DNA from: Marinospirillum sp.
GTDB lineage: Bacteria; Pseudomonadota; Gammaproteobacteria; Pseudomonadales; Halomonadaceae
Length of the DNA: 5,142 nt
Assembly: GCF_014859565.1 (NCBI RefSeq)
Contig: NZ_JACUUA010000224.1
Location: 1-5,142 of the forward strand
Direction: 5' to 3'
The translations under genes were made by a program, and so were the position numbers. The notes under the pieces were generated by a model. The model made no database searches and was not told the origin of the DNA. It worked only from the letters and a program-made list of their open reading frames with translations. This document shows, in pieces, positions 1 to 4,724 of this stretch (its first letter is position 1; every line of letters begins with the position of its first letter).

Positions 1-119
1 GGGGCAAAGTTTGGTATCCGCAAGTACCCTGTTTGGTATCCGCAAGTACCCTGTTTGGTATCCGCAAGTACCCTGTTGGTATCCGTAAGTACCCTATCTA
101 GGTATCTGCTAGTACCCTG
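1..119. repeat. oriV iterons (five direct repeats)
   Basis: Five direct repeats with core GGTATCCGCAAGTACCCTG start at 13, 35, 57, 78 and 101. The first three are identical and sit on an exact 22-bp period. The fourth (CCGT for CCGC, final A) and the fifth (CTGCT for CCGCA) have diverged, with start-to-start steps of 21 and 23 bp. They lie directly downstream of the stop codon of the TrfA-like gene, next to an AT-rich segment, which is the usual arrangement for initiator-binding iterons of theta plasmids. Such repeats normally bind the plasmid initiator as monomers and also set copy number and incompatibility. From memory the core does not resemble the 17-bp RK2 iteron, so the binding specificity is probably distinct. 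Copies at 5100-5118 and 5122-5140 are the first two iterons seen again in the terminal overlap. Confidence 0.93.
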
Positions 120-122
120 TTT

Positions 123-1010
123 CTACCCGCTATGACGGTGCCTTTTTTTCTTGGCCAGATGTTTGATCTGGGTTTTGACTGGTTGCCGATTTACGACCAC
201 CAGCCCTGCTTTTATTTCGTAATCAAACGGTGTGTCGCCCTCACTGCAAGCTGCTTTGACTGCTTCGAGTGCCTTGATTAGTTTTTGTTTTCCGCTTTTT
301 AGACTGCTGTTTTCGCTTCCTGTCAGCCTTAACAGGGTTTCAACTTTGATTGGGTATGGGTTTGCGTGGCTTGAGTAAAAGCCATGAAGCCACTGCGCCA
401 TCTGGCTCCCGCCTAGTTTTTTTCGTGTATCCCACTGTATGTGGGAATATTGATCGACTCCAAAAAGCGGTGTGATCTTATCGTCTAGCTCGATAATCCA
501 TTCGTTTGTATTGTCGTCCTTCACCGCAGAACTAATCAGACTGCCGATGTATGTGTATCTTTCATGCTTTACAATCAATGCGTTGGCGACAAGTCGCTCG
601 ATGCGAGATTGAAGAATCTCCCTGTTTTTTCCTGATAGCGTTTTGCCCATCAGCTTTAGTAGCTGATAGCCTGTGATGTGGCATTTGCTGCCCAGATCTT
701 GCAGGCGTACGGCGTGCAAAATCGACTCCCAGGTATCCAGGTCGCCTTGATCGAGTCGCTGACCTGTGTATCGAACCTCTATACCGTCTAGGCTTGCCAT
801 TGGTTCGCGCTCTAAATAGCGTCTACGACCGCGACCGACCGCACCGAATAGTGCTGAGCGCAGGAAACCATTTGGGACAGCTCTCACTGGCTCCGGCCAG
901 AATGGTAGCTGTATCACCTTGGCTGTTGTTGCAGGCGATTCATCCGCCCGCACCGACTTTGCTTTTTTTCCGGTTTTCAGTCGCTCAACCCGCGCTATCA
1001 AGTCATCCAT
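123..1010 (-). CDS. trfA: TrfA-family plasmid replication initiator
   Basis: The 295-aa protein should bind the adjacent iterons, open the origin and recruit host DnaB helicase and the beta clamp. It resembles the TrfA family of IncP plasmids across most of its length. Recognisable segments are QLPFWPEPVRAVPNGFLRSA (about 34-53), RYLERE (64-69), the GQRLDQGDLDTWESILH stretch (83-99), GKNREIL (127-133), and LHGFYSSHANPYPIKVET followed by LRLTGSE (208-233). The length is close to the short form of RK2 TrfA. QLPFW at 34-38 could be a degenerate version of the QLSLF-type clamp-binding motif; this is inference. The C-terminal end is strongly basic (KKKRHRH). The start is ATG at 1008-1010, with AGGA eight bases upstream (plus-strand tcct at 1019-1022). 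The stop codon (123-125) begins four bases after the last iteron, so read-through transcription would run into oriV. The gene has its own promoter and is not part of the mob operon. Confidence 0.93.
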   Translation of the reverse strand: MDDLIARVERLKTGKKAKSVRADESPATTAKVIQLPFWPEPVRAVPNGFLRSALFGAVGRGRRRYLEREPMASLDGIEVRYTGQRLDQGDLDTWESILHAVRLQDLGSKCHITGYQLLKLMGKTLSGKNREILQSRIERLVANALIVKHERYTYIGSLISSAVKDDNTNEWIIELDDKITPLFGVDQYSHIQWDTRKKLGGSQMAQWLHGFYSSHANPYPIKVETLLRLTGSENSSLKSGKQKLIKALEAVKAACSEGDTPFDYEIKAGLVVVNRQPVKTQIKHLAKKKRHRHSG

Positions 1011-1040: not shown

Positions 1041-1068
1041 ATTATAGTACCACTATACAGCCTGACCA
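1041..1068 (-). promoter_or_regulatory. rep promoter with operator-like palindrome
   Basis: On the minus strand a perfect TATAAT (plus-strand attata, 1041-1046) lies about 30 bases upstream of the rep start codon. A TGGTCA -35 candidate (1063-1068) stands 16 bp upstream of it and matches TTGACA at four of six bases. A perfect inverted repeat TATAGT-ACC-ACTATA (1043-1057) overlaps the -10 box, as expected for a repressor operator giving autoregulation or copy control. Which protein would bind it is unknown. Confidence 0.6.
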
Positions 1069-1199
1069 GCAATAGGCAATACTGTCTTTTTATTCTTTGA
1101 TTCACTGCACTACATTTCTGGACTGCTACTGTCTTTCCGTTCCTCGTTCTGCCTGTCGCTCTCTTTTCTAGTATGACTGTCTTTTATATTTCGGCGTGC
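1057..1199. repeat. Periodic ACWGY array C (rep promoter to mobA 3' end)
   Basis: The pentamer ACWGY recurs at 1057 (ACAGC), 1081 (ACTGT), 1104 (ACTGC), 1128 (ACTGT), 1152 (CCTGT, one mismatch) and 1176 (ACTGT), with steps of 24, 23, 24, 24 and 24 bp. Bases between the pentamers are poorly conserved, although three copies continue as ACTGTCTTT. The array begins between the -10 and -35 boxes of rep, fills the rep-mobA gap and runs about 90 bases into mobA. There it encodes the charged tail of the relaxase, where 24 bp equals eight codons. It shares its motif and period with the arrays at 3902-4096 and 4531-4724. The function is unknown. Confidence 0.7.
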
Positions 1200-3215
1200 C
1201 TCTAATGCTGCGTCGGTTGTCCGACCTGCGTAGTCAGCCGGGTCGTGCTTGCGCCTGGTTGCCGGGTGCAGTAGTAGTGCATTCTCGACCTCACCGGCGC
1301 TGAAACCGGCTCGGAGCATCGCAACACAAGCCCCAAAGTCGCGCCTGCTTTCGTCCGACGTTTTCATTAAAAGCCTATATCTTTCAAGTGTTTGAACAAG
1401 GTCTGATTCATCCTTGCTGCTTGGCATGAGTGCCGCTGGCTCGCCGCGCAGCTGCACTTTTGCTGCCCGCTGCTCTGCTGCCTGCATGCGCTCCTGCTGT
1501 CGCTCCAGCTCGGCTTTTTTGCGCCTCGACCGTATCATTTCAAGAAGCTTGACCGTCTTACCGCAAACCCGATCTATAGCCTGAATTATCTTTGTAAATG
1601 GCGAATTTTTGCCTATTTTTTTGTTCGCAAACCCTGCCAGCCTGAATGGATGTATTGCACCAGTAAACGCCTTGTCTCCGTATTTCTTGTTCACACCTTG
1701 GACAAATTCATTCGCTGTTGACTGTTCTTCTTTTGAAATTTCGGGCTTTGGCGCTTTGATAATCGCCTGTAAATTGTCTTGGCTCGACTCTTGTATCAGA
1801 CATGGCTCGTAGCCAGCATTCAGCAGTTTATCCTTTGTTGTTGGTGTCAGATCATCCACCACTAAGTAATGATGGCTTGGATCAATCGGTGTAATGTACA
1901 CCTCATAGCTGCCAGCATTTTTTAGGCTCAAAAATCTAAACTGCTGCCTTACTTCATCCGCTGTATAAAAAATTTCATCCGCACCTTTGCGTCGCCCGTA
2001 GTCATTGCCCGGTATGATAACTGGATCACCATCACGCCTCGGCATAAGTGTTATCCGGTATCGCTCCGCCCGTAGTGCTGCATGCTGTTCGGCCCATGCC
2101 GCCTCTTTTATCTTGATGTGTTCAGGCTTAGGCCCAGGGGCTTCTGCCGCTATCCTAGTAATTTCATCAGCAGTGCCATTGCCACTGCTCCGGATCCCGC
2201 CGCTGCCGCCAGTTGCCACATTGAGTTCAACTCCCTTTGGCTCTCCAGCTCCTCCAGTGCCTCCTGCATCTTCTTTGCTAATTGCTTCTGCTGAAAATCG
2301 CTCTGCTCCAGTAGCAATTTCAGCCCTTCCTGCTGCTCCTGCTTGGTCATTTCCATTAAGTCTTTCAGTGCTGCGGCTATCTCTGCCTGCTGATCGATCT
2401 GCATCAATCGCTGCTCGCCCGATGCAGATGCTTGCCGTTTCCAGGTCTCGATCTTTGACATACTCAATTCCTCTCTTTATTAGTGAACCGACCTTTAAGC
2501 TGCTGGCCAGCTTGCCGCCACCGAACCAGATGCCTTCATCATCATCGCGCAACCGAAATGCAGCGCCCGACCATTTTGTGTTGTCCTTCTGTAGCGTTGG
2601 CTTAAAATCGACTCCGGCAGCATCAAGTTTCAGGGCAAAGTCTTTAAAGTTTTCTGATTTATCTGCCACCCTTGAAACGATTTCTTGCAGCAACAGTCTT
2701 GGAGGCGGTGCGCCTTTTCTGTCGGCTTTTTCAAGTTCTGCAATAGTTACTGCTCGTACTTTTACATCTTTTGAGTTCGCAACCTCTGTTAATCCATACT
2801 CTTTTTCAATGCCGCGCAACAGCTCCTCAGTGCGCTCAAAGTCCCTGGAATCAGACACAACCGATCCATCCGATCTCACCCGCGATGCAACTACATGCAC
2901 ATGGTCATGGTCGGCATCCTGGTGTCGAACCAGTGTCCAGGGCGCATCACCAAAACCCATACCATCTAAGTATTTTGTTGCAATACTGCGCCACTGCTCA
3001 GGAGTTAGACTGTCATGCTTGCCTACAGCCAGGCTGCAATGAAAAACTGCTTTACCCAGGCCTGGGCGCAGATTCCGATATGCAGCTAGTTCAGCAGCCA
3101 TGTCCCGGGCTGTTTTGCTGCCCAGAGTTGTATGCAGGAGCACCGCATCTTTCTTGCCAAGGACGTAGTCCAAGGCACCACGAAAGCCGCTTCCCTTAAC
3201 AATATTCGCTATCAT
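1110..3215 (-). CDS. mobA: MobA relaxase fused to RepB-like primase
   Basis: The 701-aa protein should nick oriT, stay covalently bound to the 5' end, pilot the strand into the recipient and probably prime synthesis there. Residues 1-145 are a MobA/VirD2-type (MOBP) relaxase. Y17 in ALDYVL is the likely catalytic tyrosine. The metal-binding motif III is H98-x-D100-x-x-H103-x-H105-x-H107. Residues about 255-360 are a Gly/Ser/Asp-rich linker. Residues about 365-535 resemble the RepB primase of IncQ plasmids: YITPIDP, the acidic pair D454-D455 in LVVDDL, NLQAIIKAP, and HPFRLAGFANKK (522-533). Residues 560-590 look like a charged coiled coil. Residues 625-675 (RDFGACVAMLRAGFS to DYAGRTTDAALEARR) resemble a primase C-terminal helical domain. 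The ATG overlaps the mobC stop as ATGA, so translation is probably coupled. The charged last 25 residues are encoded by periodic array C. The mobB gene lies inside codons 252-356. Confidence 0.92.
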   Translation of the reverse strand: MIANIVKGSGFRGALDYVLGKKDAVLLHTTLGSKTARDMAAELAAYRNLRPGLGKAVFHCSLAVGKHDSLTPEQWRSIATKYLDGMGFGDAPWTLVRHQDADHDHVHVVASRVRSDGSVVSDSRDFERTEELLRGIEKEYGLTEVANSKDVKVRAVTIAELEKADRKGAPPPRLLLQEIVSRVADKSENFKDFALKLDAAGVDFKPTLQKDNTKWSGAAFRLRDDDEGIWFGGGKLASSLKVGSLIKRGIEYVKDRDLETASICIGRAAIDADRSAGRDSRSTERLNGNDQAGAAGRAEIATGAERFSAEAISKEDAGGTGGAGEPKGVELNVATGGSGGIRSSGNGTADEITRIAAEAPGPKPEHIKIKEAAWAEQHAALRAERYRITLMPRRDGDPVIIPGNDYGRRKGADEIFYTADEVRQQFRFLSLKNAGSYEVYITPIDPSHHYLVVDDLTPTTKDKLLNAGYEPCLIQESSQDNLQAIIKAPKPEISKEEQSTANEFVQGVNKKYGDKAFTGAIHPFRLAGFANKKIGKNSPFTKIIQAIDRVCGKTVKLLEMIRSRRKKAELERQQERMQAAEQRAAKVQLRGEPAALMPSSKDESDLVQTLERYRLLMKTSDESRRDFGACVAMLRAGFSAGEVENALLLHPATRRKHDPADYAGRTTDAALEARRNIKDSHTRKESDRQNEERKDSSSPEM
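2150..2461 (-). CDS. mobB: MobB-like accessory protein nested in mobA
   Basis: A 103-aa protein is read in another frame inside mobA. It is Gln/Glu/Lys-rich and almost wholly helical, with a probable coiled coil over residues 20-77. It ends in a hydrophobic stretch at 82-103 (MWQLAAAAGS then GAVAMALLMKLLG) that could insert in the membrane. A nested MobB with a C-terminal hydrophobic part is known from RSF1010, and ColE1-type mob regions also nest small genes in mobA; MobB there stabilises the relaxosome and helps link it to the transfer machinery. The assignment rests on position and architecture, not on a sequence motif. The ATG at 2459-2461 is preferred because GAGAGGAA (plus strand 2468-2475) lies about seven bases upstream. 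The TTG two codons earlier would leave that Shine-Dalgarno site almost touching the start codon. The mobA protein over this stretch is low-complexity linker. Confidence 0.8.
   Translation of the reverse strand: MSKIETWKRQASASGEQRLMQIDQQAEIAAALKDLMEMTKQEQQEGLKLLLEQSDFQQKQLAKKMQEALEELESQRELNSMWQLAAAAGSGAVAMALLMKLLG
2468..2475 (-). promoter_or_regulatory. mobB ribosome binding site inside mobA
   Basis: GAGAGGAA on the minus strand is a strong Shine-Dalgarno match placed at good spacing before the mobB ATG. It lies within mobA coding sequence, where it has no role in mobA initiation. It decides the ATG start over the upstream TTG and supports real translation of the nested frame. Confidence 0.75.
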
Positions 3216-3589
3216 TTTTCTTCAACTCCAACTAGCTGCAGCTTAATTTCATCCAGCAAAACCGTTAGCTGGATCAGTTCATAATGCAATTCTTCGGCAT
3301 CAATGATGCCAAGCTGATTAACTTTTTTTGCAATCTGATTCAGGTTGCCGCCAATTTTTCCAAGCTCCGCATGTGTCTGTACGTTTATTTTCGGAACCTT
3401 GCCAGCCGGAAGATTTCTTTTTACGATTAGCGCACGAATAGCACCCGTGTAATTTTTCCGATTTTCGCCAGACAAAAAATGCAGCTCGGCAAGCTCCAGG
3501 TCATTCAGCCGCACTACAATAGGATGTCGCAGCCGATCTTCTCGCGGCTTCACCGGCCTACCGCCTTTACTCTTTTGATGTTCGCTCAC
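3212..3589 (-). CDS. mobC: MobC mobilization accessory protein
   Basis: The 125-aa protein belongs to the MobC family, which binds oriT, helps melt the nick region and assists the relaxase. Residues 5-20 are a basic start (QKSKGGRPVKPREDRL). Residues 23-57 (PIVVRLNDLELAELHF to IRALIVKR) fit a ribbon-helix-helix DNA-binding fold. Residues 76-92 (LGKIGGNLNQIAKKVNQ) are the hallmark MobC motif, and the rest is an acidic helix. The start is placed at GTG (3587-3589), with GGAG five bases upstream (plus-strand ctcc 3595-3598). The frame is open to an ATG at 3689-3691, but those extra 34 residues are Leu/Cys-rich, unlike MobC, and would be encoded by palindromic DNA of the probable oriT region. The stop codon overlaps the mobA ATG by four bases, so the two form an operon. 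Confidence 0.9.
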   Translation of the reverse strand: MSEHQKSKGGRPVKPREDRLRHPIVVRLNDLELAELHFLSGENRKNYTGAIRALIVKRNLPAGKVPKINVQTHAELGKIGGNLNQIAKKVNQLGIIDAEELHYELIQLTVLLDEIKLQLVGVEEK

Positions 3590-3616
3590 AGCTGCTCCAT
3601 CTGGGGTTAAGGCAAT

Positions 3617-3670: not shown

Positions 3671-3689
3671 GTTAAGTGGCACACTTAAC
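3671..3689. repeat. Perfect inverted repeat, GCA centre (2)
   Basis: GTTAAGTGGCACACTTAAC is a 19-base hyphenated palindrome with 8-bp perfect arms and centre GCA. It is the strongest palindrome upstream of mobC, and hence the best candidate for an oriT inverted repeat or MobC operator. Its size is close to that of relaxase-accessory binding palindromes in other oriTs; that comparison is by analogy. Confidence 0.7.
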
Positions 3690-3857: not shown

Positions 3858-3882
3858 CGCCGCCGCCGCCGCCGCCGCCGCC
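3858..3882. repeat. (GCC)8 trinucleotide tract
   Basis: An uninterrupted run of eight GCC triplets (3859-3882, preceded by one C) lies in non-coding DNA. It directly borders the AT-rich periodic array that begins at 3902. Frames through it would give poly-Arg or poly-Ala and are not convincing genes. Pure trinucleotide runs of this length are uncommon in bacterial plasmids and prone to slippage, so the number of units may vary. Confidence 0.85.
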
Positions 3883-3901
3883 AGAAAGAAATGAAAAAAA
3901 C

Positions 3902-4096
3902 ACTGCAAACCAAAAAATAAACATACTGCACAACTACATAGAAACATCACAGTATAACCGCATTTCGGAATGACTGCACTTCCAAAAATTAGCAATACAG
4001 TATTACCACATAAACTTGCGACAGTATTTTTTTTAAAAAAATACAGTGAAAGTGCTTGCAGGCAGACAGTATAATGCCTTATAATGAACCTACAGT
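3902..4096. repeat. Periodic ACWGY array A upstream of unknown gene
   Basis: Nine pentamers matching ACWGY start at 3902 (ACTGC), 3925 (ACTGC), 3949 (ACAGT), 3973 (ACTGC), 3997, 4021, 4043, 4066 and 4092 (all ACAGT). Steps are 23, 24, 24, 24, 24, 22, 23 and 26 bp. Bases between the pentamers are AT-rich and only loosely conserved; the first five copies often continue with A/T-rich bases and a CC about eight bases in. The array ends at the promoter of the 4120-4596 gene: the copy at 4066 overlaps its -10 box and the copy at 4092 lies in its leader. This is not a CRISPR, since the shared part is only five bases. It is best read as an array of protein binding sites, possibly for the product of the adjacent gene. 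Confidence 0.75.
4046..4085 (+). promoter_or_regulatory. Promoter of the unknown plus-strand gene
   Basis: A perfect TATAAT (4070-4075) is preceded 18 bp upstream by GTGAAA (4046-4051), a four-of-six match to the -35 consensus. A second TATAAT lies at 4080-4085. A near-palindrome TGCTTGCAGGCA (4053-4064) sits between the -35 and -10 boxes, a typical place for a repressor. Two copies of the periodic motif (4043, 4066) overlap the promoter, which suggests that whatever binds the array also regulates the gene. Confidence 0.6.
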
Positions 4097-4119
4097 CAGA
4101 CAGAAAAGAGGTGTTAGTC

Positions 4120-4596
4120 ATGCAGTTCATCGTTCAGCAGGGTTCGAGCAAAGTAAAAGTCATGCGCTACGCTGGCTACGACAAAGAAAAGCGCCGCTCA
4201 GTGGTCAAGCAGGTCGCCAGCATGGATAAGTACGCCCCCGAGATTACTGATGAAATGCGCCAGATTTTCACTCCAGAGGAGCTTGAAGAAGTCGAGGACT
4301 GGATCAAAAAACGACTGCACGAAATGAACCGATCCGAGCAAAAACACGCTTTTGAGCGGCTGGATTACTACTTGTCCCGGGCTTCTTCTGCGGTCGCGCT
4401 GGATGTTGTTGAACTGACTGAAGAGCGCGTTGGCCGGATTTATGCGGCAATCGCACACTTTGAGCATCTGCTTAAAAAGCGCGGATTCAAAAAAACTGGT
4501 CTGCTCAAAAAGCATAGTCATGCGACCCGGACTGCAGATCAGGCGAAAAAGTCAGATAGCAGCAAAGAAATCAGACAGACAGTGATGCCGCTATAG
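4120..4596 (+). CDS. Uncharacterised 158-aa plasmid protein
   Basis: I do not recognise this protein family. Residues 1-35 look like short beta strands with a conserved-looking patch RYAGYDKEKRRSVVKQV (16-32). Residues 41-125 appear mainly helical, with an acidic segment (EELEEVED, 53-60) and then basic ones (KKR). Residues 119-158 are a basic, Ser/Lys-rich, probably disordered tail. There is no signal peptide, membrane segment or clear helix-turn-helix. The start is ATG at 4120, with AGAGGT (4107-4112) about seven bases upstream. The in-frame ATG at 4084 is rejected because it overlaps a -10 box and lacks a ribosome binding site. The gene stands alone, divergent from the mob operon, between two periodic ACWGY arrays, one over its promoter and one over its 3' end. 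A DNA-binding regulator or single-gene segregation factor is possible; that is inferred only from position. Confidence 0.85.
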   Translation: MQFIVQQGSSKVKVMRYAGYDKEKRRSVVKQVASMDKYAPEITDEMRQIFTPEELEEVEDWIKKRLHEMNRSEQKHAFERLDYYLSRASSAVALDVVELTEERVGRIYAAIAHFEHLLKKRGFKKTGLLKKHSHATRTADQAKKSDSSKEIRQTVMPL

Positions 4597-4724
4597 ATTG
4601 GCATATACCAGCATAGAATAGACCGACTGTGTGTTTCTGCAATGCAATACAGCAACACCAACAAATGGCAAGACTGTATTGCTTGCAAGTGAATTACTGT
4701 CATTTCCGTTATCCGGCTGACGGC
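4531..4724. repeat. Periodic ACWGY array B (gene 3' end and beyond)
   Basis: Motif copies start at 4531 (ACTGC), 4556 (ATAGC, one mismatch), 4579 (ACAGT), 4626 (ACTGT), 4649 (ACAGC), 4673 (ACTGT), 4696 (ACTGT) and 4720 (ACGGC, one mismatch). Steps are 25, 23, 47 (two units, the middle one not recognisable), 23, 24, 23 and 24 bp. The first three copies lie inside the coding end of the 158-aa gene and the rest are non-coding. The pattern matches the arrays at 3902-4096 and 1057-1199, but it is weaker and less regular. Confidence 0.55.
4638..4687. repeat. Imperfect long inverted repeat
   Basis: GCAATACAG (4644-4652) and CTGTATTGC (4674-4682) are perfect 9-bp arms. With one bulged base the arms extend to TGCAA (4638-4642) and TTGCA (4683-4687). 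The loop is 21 bases. The tips of the arms are the ACAGC and ACTGT copies of periodic array B. It may therefore be a pair of oppositely oriented binding sites rather than an RNA hairpin. Confidence 0.6.

Follow-up and report, generated by a model that had tools for sequence, protein, structure and literature searches.

The 5,142-nucleotide stretch of Marinospirillum sp. DNA analysed here (contig NZ_JACUUA010000224.1; hereafter the window) is a circular plasmid of 5087 bp, the first 55 bases of the window being identical to the last 55. It carries three arrays of a short motif, ACWGY, and a gene for a protein of 158 amino acids (the 158-aa protein) that belongs to a family without a curated name, in what would be a known kind of role. 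We propose that the three arrays are tandem operators of this protein, which probably forms a filament on them that covers its own promoter and the promoter of a maintenance gene. By computation, we established the arrays, their pitch, their position over predicted promoters, their association with one gene family and their conservation in IncQ-3 plasmids.

Array 2 (3902..4096, forward strand) lies 5' of the 158-aa gene and consists of nine ACWGY sites, at 3902, 3925, 3949, 3973, 3997, 4021, 4043, 4066 and 4092. The steps between them are 23, 24, 24, 24, 24, 22, 23 and 26 bp (mean 23.75 bp). These are the nine pentamers listed in a first-pass annotation of this DNA, and each was found where it had been placed. 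The annotation had reported a single array. Array 2 is real, but the picture was incomplete: two further arrays of the same pitch had been missed. Array 1 (1057..1180, mean step 23.8 bp) is located upstream of the trfA-like replication gene and overlaps the 3' end of mobA-repB; ACWGY occurs at 1057, 1081, 1104, 1128 and 1176, with a one-mismatch site at 1152. Array 3 (4579..4700) extends from the 3' end of the 158-aa gene into non-coding DNA, with ACWGY at 4579, 4626, 4649, 4673 and 4696 (mean step 23.33 bp, counted from 4626); the register position near 4603 is empty. Read by eye, each unit of the window array is one short near-palindrome, ACWGT, and sharing between the units of array 2 is limited to the 5-bp core. 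At 10.5 bp per turn, the steps of the three arrays correspond to 2.2–2.3 turns and to a rotation of 80–96 degrees per site. A value of ∼2.26 turns per unit fits a protein that winds along the DNA, as the annotation had suggested. Within mobA-repB, four sites spaced by 24 bp make up a further, weak cluster (2959..3039, score 22.4). None of 200 synonymous shuffles scored as high (maximum 19.9; this was one of four genes tested).

The claim that array 2 is far from random was borne out. When the 5087-bp circle was dinucleotide-shuffled 5000 times, ACWGY chains at 22–26 bp reached at most 3 copies, versus 9 observed, and in 20,000 shuffles of 3881–4125 alone the longest chain was 4, reached once. 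A motif-free test (any 6-mer with one mismatch, on either strand, at period 20–26) found 8 copies in array 2 versus a maximum of 5 in 100 shuffles. Outside 3891–4100, ACWGY pairs at 22–26 bp numbered 7 (shuffle mean 0.39, maximum 4, none of 5000 reaching 7): three in array 1 (1057–1180), three in array 3 (4626–4700) and one (2985/3009) within mobA. We also scored real DNA, as 1029 overlapping 400-bp tiles from 17 loci. Chains of at least 8 copies occurred in eight tiles; seven of these are arrays of the 158-aa protein family (five distinct) and one is GC-rich coding DNA. Six-copy chains of some word were present in 50 of the 1029 tiles; some are family arrays or iterons, and many are GC-rich words elsewhere. 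Shuffles therefore understate the background. Together with the shortness and degeneracy of the pentamer, this background is what speaks for chance or base composition as the source of the arrays. Against it stand the shuffle results, obtained separately for the chain and for the outside pairs, and the conservation and intragenic array of the IncQ-3 plasmids described below; we consider the odds of a chance origin close to nil. The ACWGY array on the window plasmid is real.

The gene downstream of array 2 (4120..4596, forward strand) encodes the proposed array-binding regulator. The most likely start codon is ATG 4120, judging from the homology of the MQF start. A curated-family scan of the protein returned nothing above the cut-off, with only weak PHROG matches, and a Pfam scan of 81 relatives gave scattered unrelated families, the commonest in 14 of the 81. 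A tblastn search of PLSDB found relatives on 46 plasmids, among them IncQ-3 plasmids such as pGNB2, in which the gene is divergent from mobC; all 40 of the matches listed are annotated as 'hypothetical protein'. A profile search over 3171 candidates collected 282 relatives. More distant relatives were found on P-type plasmids of ∼36 kb, on Polaromonas, Pseudomonas, Halomonas, Paraburkholderia and uncultured plasmids, and on one contig of a viral collection. Twelve representatives share 14–27% identity with the window protein over the alignment. Five entries, P0002–P0006, were 57–88% identical.

Arrays recur upstream of these relatives. We surveyed 16 loci (up to 400 bp before the gene) without specifying a motif: in each, the longest chain that any single 6-mer forms at period 20–26 was compared with 100 shuffles. 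In eight loci the array was unmatched by any shuffle: the window, L001, L003, L007 (these three all IncQ-3), L010, L020, L029 and L031. Three loci (L011, L012 and L030) were borderline, being matched by 1–2 of the 100 shuffles. Across relatives the pitch is constant at 21–24 bp, and the letters of the motif differ by lineage. Read by eye, the unit is CGACWGTCG at 24 bp in IncQ-3, GACAGTC at 21–22 bp in L010, CAGT/ACTG in the Halomonas plasmid, CGCATGCG at 22 bp in pHNGDW697-2, CCGCATGCGG at 22–23 bp in pTR_2_37, and GGATA/TATCC in the P-type plasmids, L012 and Polaromonas. In L010 (5686–5962), a 38-kb viral-collection contig that also has a tyrosine recombinase-like open reading frame (ORF), the family member sits behind its GACAGTC array. 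On the Halomonas plasmid pHA020_1 (L030), a different ∼23-bp repeat (2406–2590) with the word AAAAGG adjoins the start of a RepB-type rep gene; it perhaps represents the iterons of that plasmid.

GGATA-class half sites fall on a lattice, with a best period of 11.6–11.8 bp in five of five loci. Random placements were as strong (period 11.2–12.3) in 0, 11, 7, 0 and 1 of 2000 trials for L011, L036, L034, L019 and L012, respectively; L036 is the full plasmid of L013, L034 is the full plasmid of L020, and L019 was tested over 600 bp. The half sites are also concentrated upstream of the gene in all five. The 400 bp upstream hold 18 words of this class in L019, 7 in L012, 10 in L034, 9 in L036 and 11 in L011, versus 1.39, 0.55, 0.25, 0.25 and 0.24 per 400 bp elsewhere.

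The sites could instead be read by LexA, a nucleoid protein or some other host factor, and ACTGT/ACAGT does resemble halves of the enterobacterial LexA box. The halves of a LexA box are 13 bp apart, however. Moreover, CGACWGTCG and GGATA arrays both occur on enterobacterial plasmids, so that the letters differ within one host family while the pitch is kept, and the motif class follows the plasmid protein: on the protein tree it required 5 changes versus a shuffled mean of 7.1, a value as low being reached in 6 of 200 shuffles. A host factor is a very unlikely reader of these arrays.

Two plasmid-encoded proteins, the TrfA-like protein and MobC, had been named in the first-pass annotation as candidate binders beside the 158-aa protein. 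The 158-aa protein fits; the other two fit less well because such arrays also occur before the homologous gene where the plasmid has a different Rep, in some cases without an adjacent mobC. If the TrfA-like initiator were the binder, the arrays would be extra iterons or an operator, and iteron plasmids do use 22-bp repeats, the window does have 22-bp iterons and array 1 does precede trfA. Yet the true iterons of the window are a different repeat, far better conserved, and same-pitch arrays are found upstream of the homologous gene where the initiator is IncQ RepC, P-type rep or of the replicase family. Long near-identical direct repeats, as expected of iterons, were not found in array 2. We give this explanation very little weight. 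The case for an operator of MobC is that mobC is the divergent neighbour of the 158-aa gene in the window and of the homologous gene in IncQ-3. It suffers from the arrays that precede homologs with no adjacent mobC (pTR_2_37, pHNGDW697-2 and the P-type plasmids), and arrays 1 and 3 are far from mobC, while array 2 starts 310 bp from the probable mobC start. MobC is an equally improbable candidate.

The IncQ-3 plasmids allowed a direct look at conservation, on 8 distinct upstream sequences from 9 loci. In the 7-mers of the sites, the mean major-base frequency was 0.970 and 33 of 42 columns were invariant; in the spacers, the values were 0.845 and 30 of 82 (sites versus spacers, p=1e-6). The first-pass annotation had staked its case in advance on the pentamers being kept in related plasmids, and in these IncQ-3 sequences the sites are kept. 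The DNA just 5' of the array was intermediate (0.917, 50 columns); therefore, the contrast may partly reflect fast spacers rather than slow sites.

A second IncQ-3 array lies within the homologous gene itself, at offsets 118, 142, 165, 189, 213 and 236 (steps of 24, 23, 24, 24 and 23 bp). It maps to 6509–6640 in L001 and has the same offsets in L002, L003, L005 and L007, with an extra site at offset 94 in four of the five loci. Scored with a motif trained on the IncQ-3 promoter sites only, it was matched by none of 300 synonymous-codon shuffles in each of these five closely related loci. Since steps of 23 bp do not add up to whole codons, they speak for selection acting at the DNA level.

Second arrays were also found next to partition genes. 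For pTR_2_37 (L031), we trained a motif on the array of the regulator itself; across the plasmid it gave 11 distinct hits once duplicates from the circular join were removed: 6 in that array, 5 upstream of parA and none elsewhere. By eye, this second array has seven units at 1638–1797. In pHNGDW697-2 (L035), a looser second array (∼7716–7860) stands upstream of the gene of a ParA-type ATPase. It is less clean: three motif hits are chained, 33 of the 45 hits stand alone and the de novo chain scores 5.5. In each of the two plasmids, the regulator lies face to face with the parA operon, and the arrays flank the pair on the outside.

These second arrays, together with the intragenic array of IncQ-3, raise the question of whether the arrays are primarily centromeres. 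The protein would then serve segregation in the manner of StbA, whether ParA takes part or not, and its repression of promoters would be secondary. Several arrays per plasmid would suit this explanation, as would the lack of a gene start directly after array 3, and StbA of R388 relies on promoter-proximal repeats to stabilise its plasmid (PMC3098194). On the other hand, a ParA-like ATPase was not found among the five window ORFs scanned, and several arrays overlie predicted promoters. In pHNGDW697-2, not only is the second array weaker, but the ParA operon has a weak ribbon-helix-helix match of its own (E=0.001, below the cut-off), a candidate centromere binder. We regard a primarily centromeric function as rather unlikely, yet serious enough to be kept in mind; a centromere role of the arrays is possible.

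The operator reading places the arrays over promoters, and promoters were predicted under several of them. The predicted promoter of the 158-aa gene (GTGAAA-18-TATAAT, 4046..4075, forward strand) has hexamers that touch the sites at 4043 and 4066. Two overlapping predicted promoters of the trfA-like gene (1041..1079, reverse strand) have site 1057 in the spacer of one; in the region 900–1300 we found 3 promoter-like sites, two of them on the minus strand, versus 0.4 expected. The IncQ-3 gene has a predicted promoter, TTGACA-17-TAGAAT, under its array, and parA of pTR_2_37 has one, TTGACA-17-TAGTAT, under the second array (1 found, 0.6 expected).

The AlphaFold2 model of the 158-aa protein, built from 81 aligned sequences, has a mean predicted local distance difference test score (pLDDT) of 86.3. 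It consists of a three-stranded sheet (residues 2–5, 11–21 and 26–36), five helices and a low-confidence tail, and the sheet region is the most conserved part among close relatives (MQF...GYDKEKRR). The model suggests that the sheet may read the DNA and the helices may oligomerise. In the proposed mechanism, the 158-aa protein would be the array binder, acting as an oligomerising dimer with repression as its effect. One unit, probably a dimer, would occupy each near-palindromic site. Units 21–24 bp apart would touch side by side at a fixed pitch and build a short nucleoprotein filament wound round the DNA. At the promoter of the 158-aa gene, the filament would occlude RNA polymerase and bring about autorepression. 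It would also cover the promoter of the maintenance machinery, namely the trfA-like rep gene in the window plasmid and parA in relatives, so that protein level, plasmid dose and maintenance gene expression would be tied together.

Several results weigh against this proposal. The first-pass annotation had set the array over the promoter of the 158-aa gene. The array does lie upstream, where a promoter is expected, but the promoter call is weak by itself: 1 promoter-like site was found versus 1.4 expected in shuffles, which is no better than chance. The promoter call of L035 likewise did not exceed the shuffles, and the regulator gene of pTR_2_37 had no predicted promoter upstream. The upstream survey failed in five of its 16 loci, with shuffles as high in 14 (L013), 22 (L019), 56 (L027), 93 (L028) and 31 (L032) of 100; L013 and L019 pass the half-site test described above, L027 and L028 are without an array, and the annotation of L032 is truncated. 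The 16 loci also include several near relatives of one subfamily. Real DNA also yields six-copy chains, as shown above; therefore, arrays of six copies say little by themselves, and those of IncQ-3 depend on the further evidence given here. In the protein tree, 5 of the 10 inner branches lack resolution; the program also warned that the long branches of the window protein and L010 meet. Finally, the DNA-binding part of the protein model is a guess, and searches of solved and viral structures returned no convincing match.

We compared the window system with known plasmid regulators. KfrA of the IncU plasmid RA3 is an autoregulator that acts on five 9-bp repeats and is needed for stable maintenance (PMC7783346, in the portion available). 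The likeness is that both are plasmid-encoded and that both have several repeats, here a putative operator, over their own promoter; KfrA binds more strongly with more repeats (PMC7783346). By the position of array 2, the 158-aa protein may repress its own gene in the manner of KfrA. The proteins differ, however: in KfrA, an N-terminal helix-turn-helix leads into a long helical tail (residues 54–355; PMC7783346), whereas the 158-aa protein is predicted to start with a beta-sheet of three strands, and it had no KfrA family match at E up to 1. Nor are the sites adjacent 9-bp repeats; in the window they are ∼23.75 bp apart.

StbA of the IncW plasmid R388 binds stbDRs, two sets of five 9-bp direct repeats with 2-bp spacing, an 11-bp pitch and one direction, and acts on stability without needing its ATPase partner (PMC3098194, in the portion available). 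We compared StbA by repeat layout and gene context. Here the units are dyads at 21–24 bp rather than 9-bp repeats in one direction, the pitch of the window arrays being 23.3–23.8 bp, and no StbB-type or ParA-like operon partner was present among the five window ORFs scanned. The ParA genes of L031 and L035 have their own promoter region. The 158-aa family would act in a similar way to KfrA and StbA, but the tested features of both failed, and we therefore did not file it under either.

Type Ib partition proteins such as ParG are small centromere-binding proteins that also repress their operon. We found no ribbon-helix-helix family match for the 158-aa protein, and its model differs, although absence from the structure searches does not exclude this fold. 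Another close counterpart is the 'hypothetical protein' gene of IncQ-3, one of four core genes of five plasmids (PMC7557826, in the portion available). It is a homolog of the 158-aa protein with 26–28% identity over the alignment, is divergent from mobC and has an upstream array at 23–24 bp. It differs in its motif, CGACWGTCG, in an IncQ RepA/RepC replicon and in the second array inside the gene. The available portion of PMC7557826 does not mention arrays for this core gene. Among the titles and abstract openings listed by searches of the open-access literature, none describes these arrays, subscription papers being outside the reach of these searches.

The rest of the window plasmid is a hybrid backbone, because its relaxase–primase fusion is the IncQ arrangement but its initiator is TrfA-like. 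A TrfA-type replication initiator (123..1010, reverse strand; Pfam TrfA, E=4e-18) lies next to 5.2 copies of the 22-bp iterons (9..122, forward strand). The IncQ-type fusion of a MobA relaxase to a RepB primase is present (1110..3215, reverse strand; Pfam Relaxase and RepB_primase), and the five window ORFs scanned gave no match to the IncQ RepA helicase or RepC initiator. MobC (3212..3592, reverse strand; Pfam MobC) has an uncertain start codon, its open frame extending to 3691. One related hybrid, p31A16004_B_KPC (L012), combines a homolog of the 158-aa protein with TrfA and a RepB primase; a DNA comparison with PLSDB in near mode found no plasmid matching the window. Just 5' of array 2 is a perfect CGC triplet tract of 8.3 copies (3858–3882). 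Upstream of mobC, a short inverted repeat, GTTAAGTG/CACTTAAC (3671–3689), was spotted by eye and is possibly part of the origin of transfer.

More speculatively, and with low confidence, the family may be a new class of plasmid proteins for both segregation and control. Its filament-forming members would read DNA through a beta-sheet and oligomerise through helices, and the ∼23-bp lattice of their arrays (2 x 11.7 bp in one class) would serve as operator and centromere at once. They would dispense with a motor on small mobilizable plasmids and act alongside ParA on other plasmids. Lineages would keep the lattice and change the letters, so that co-resident plasmids avoid cross-talk.

Homologs of the 158-aa protein are carried by clinical-resistance plasmids: IncQ-3 plasmids with GES-6, CTX-M-53 or qnrS2, and a KPC-2 plasmid. 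The arrays give this 'hypothetical protein' a concrete and testable job, with binding sites, regulated promoters and perhaps a centromere, and the family offers a natural experiment in how an array-binding protein would change its letters while keeping its lattice.
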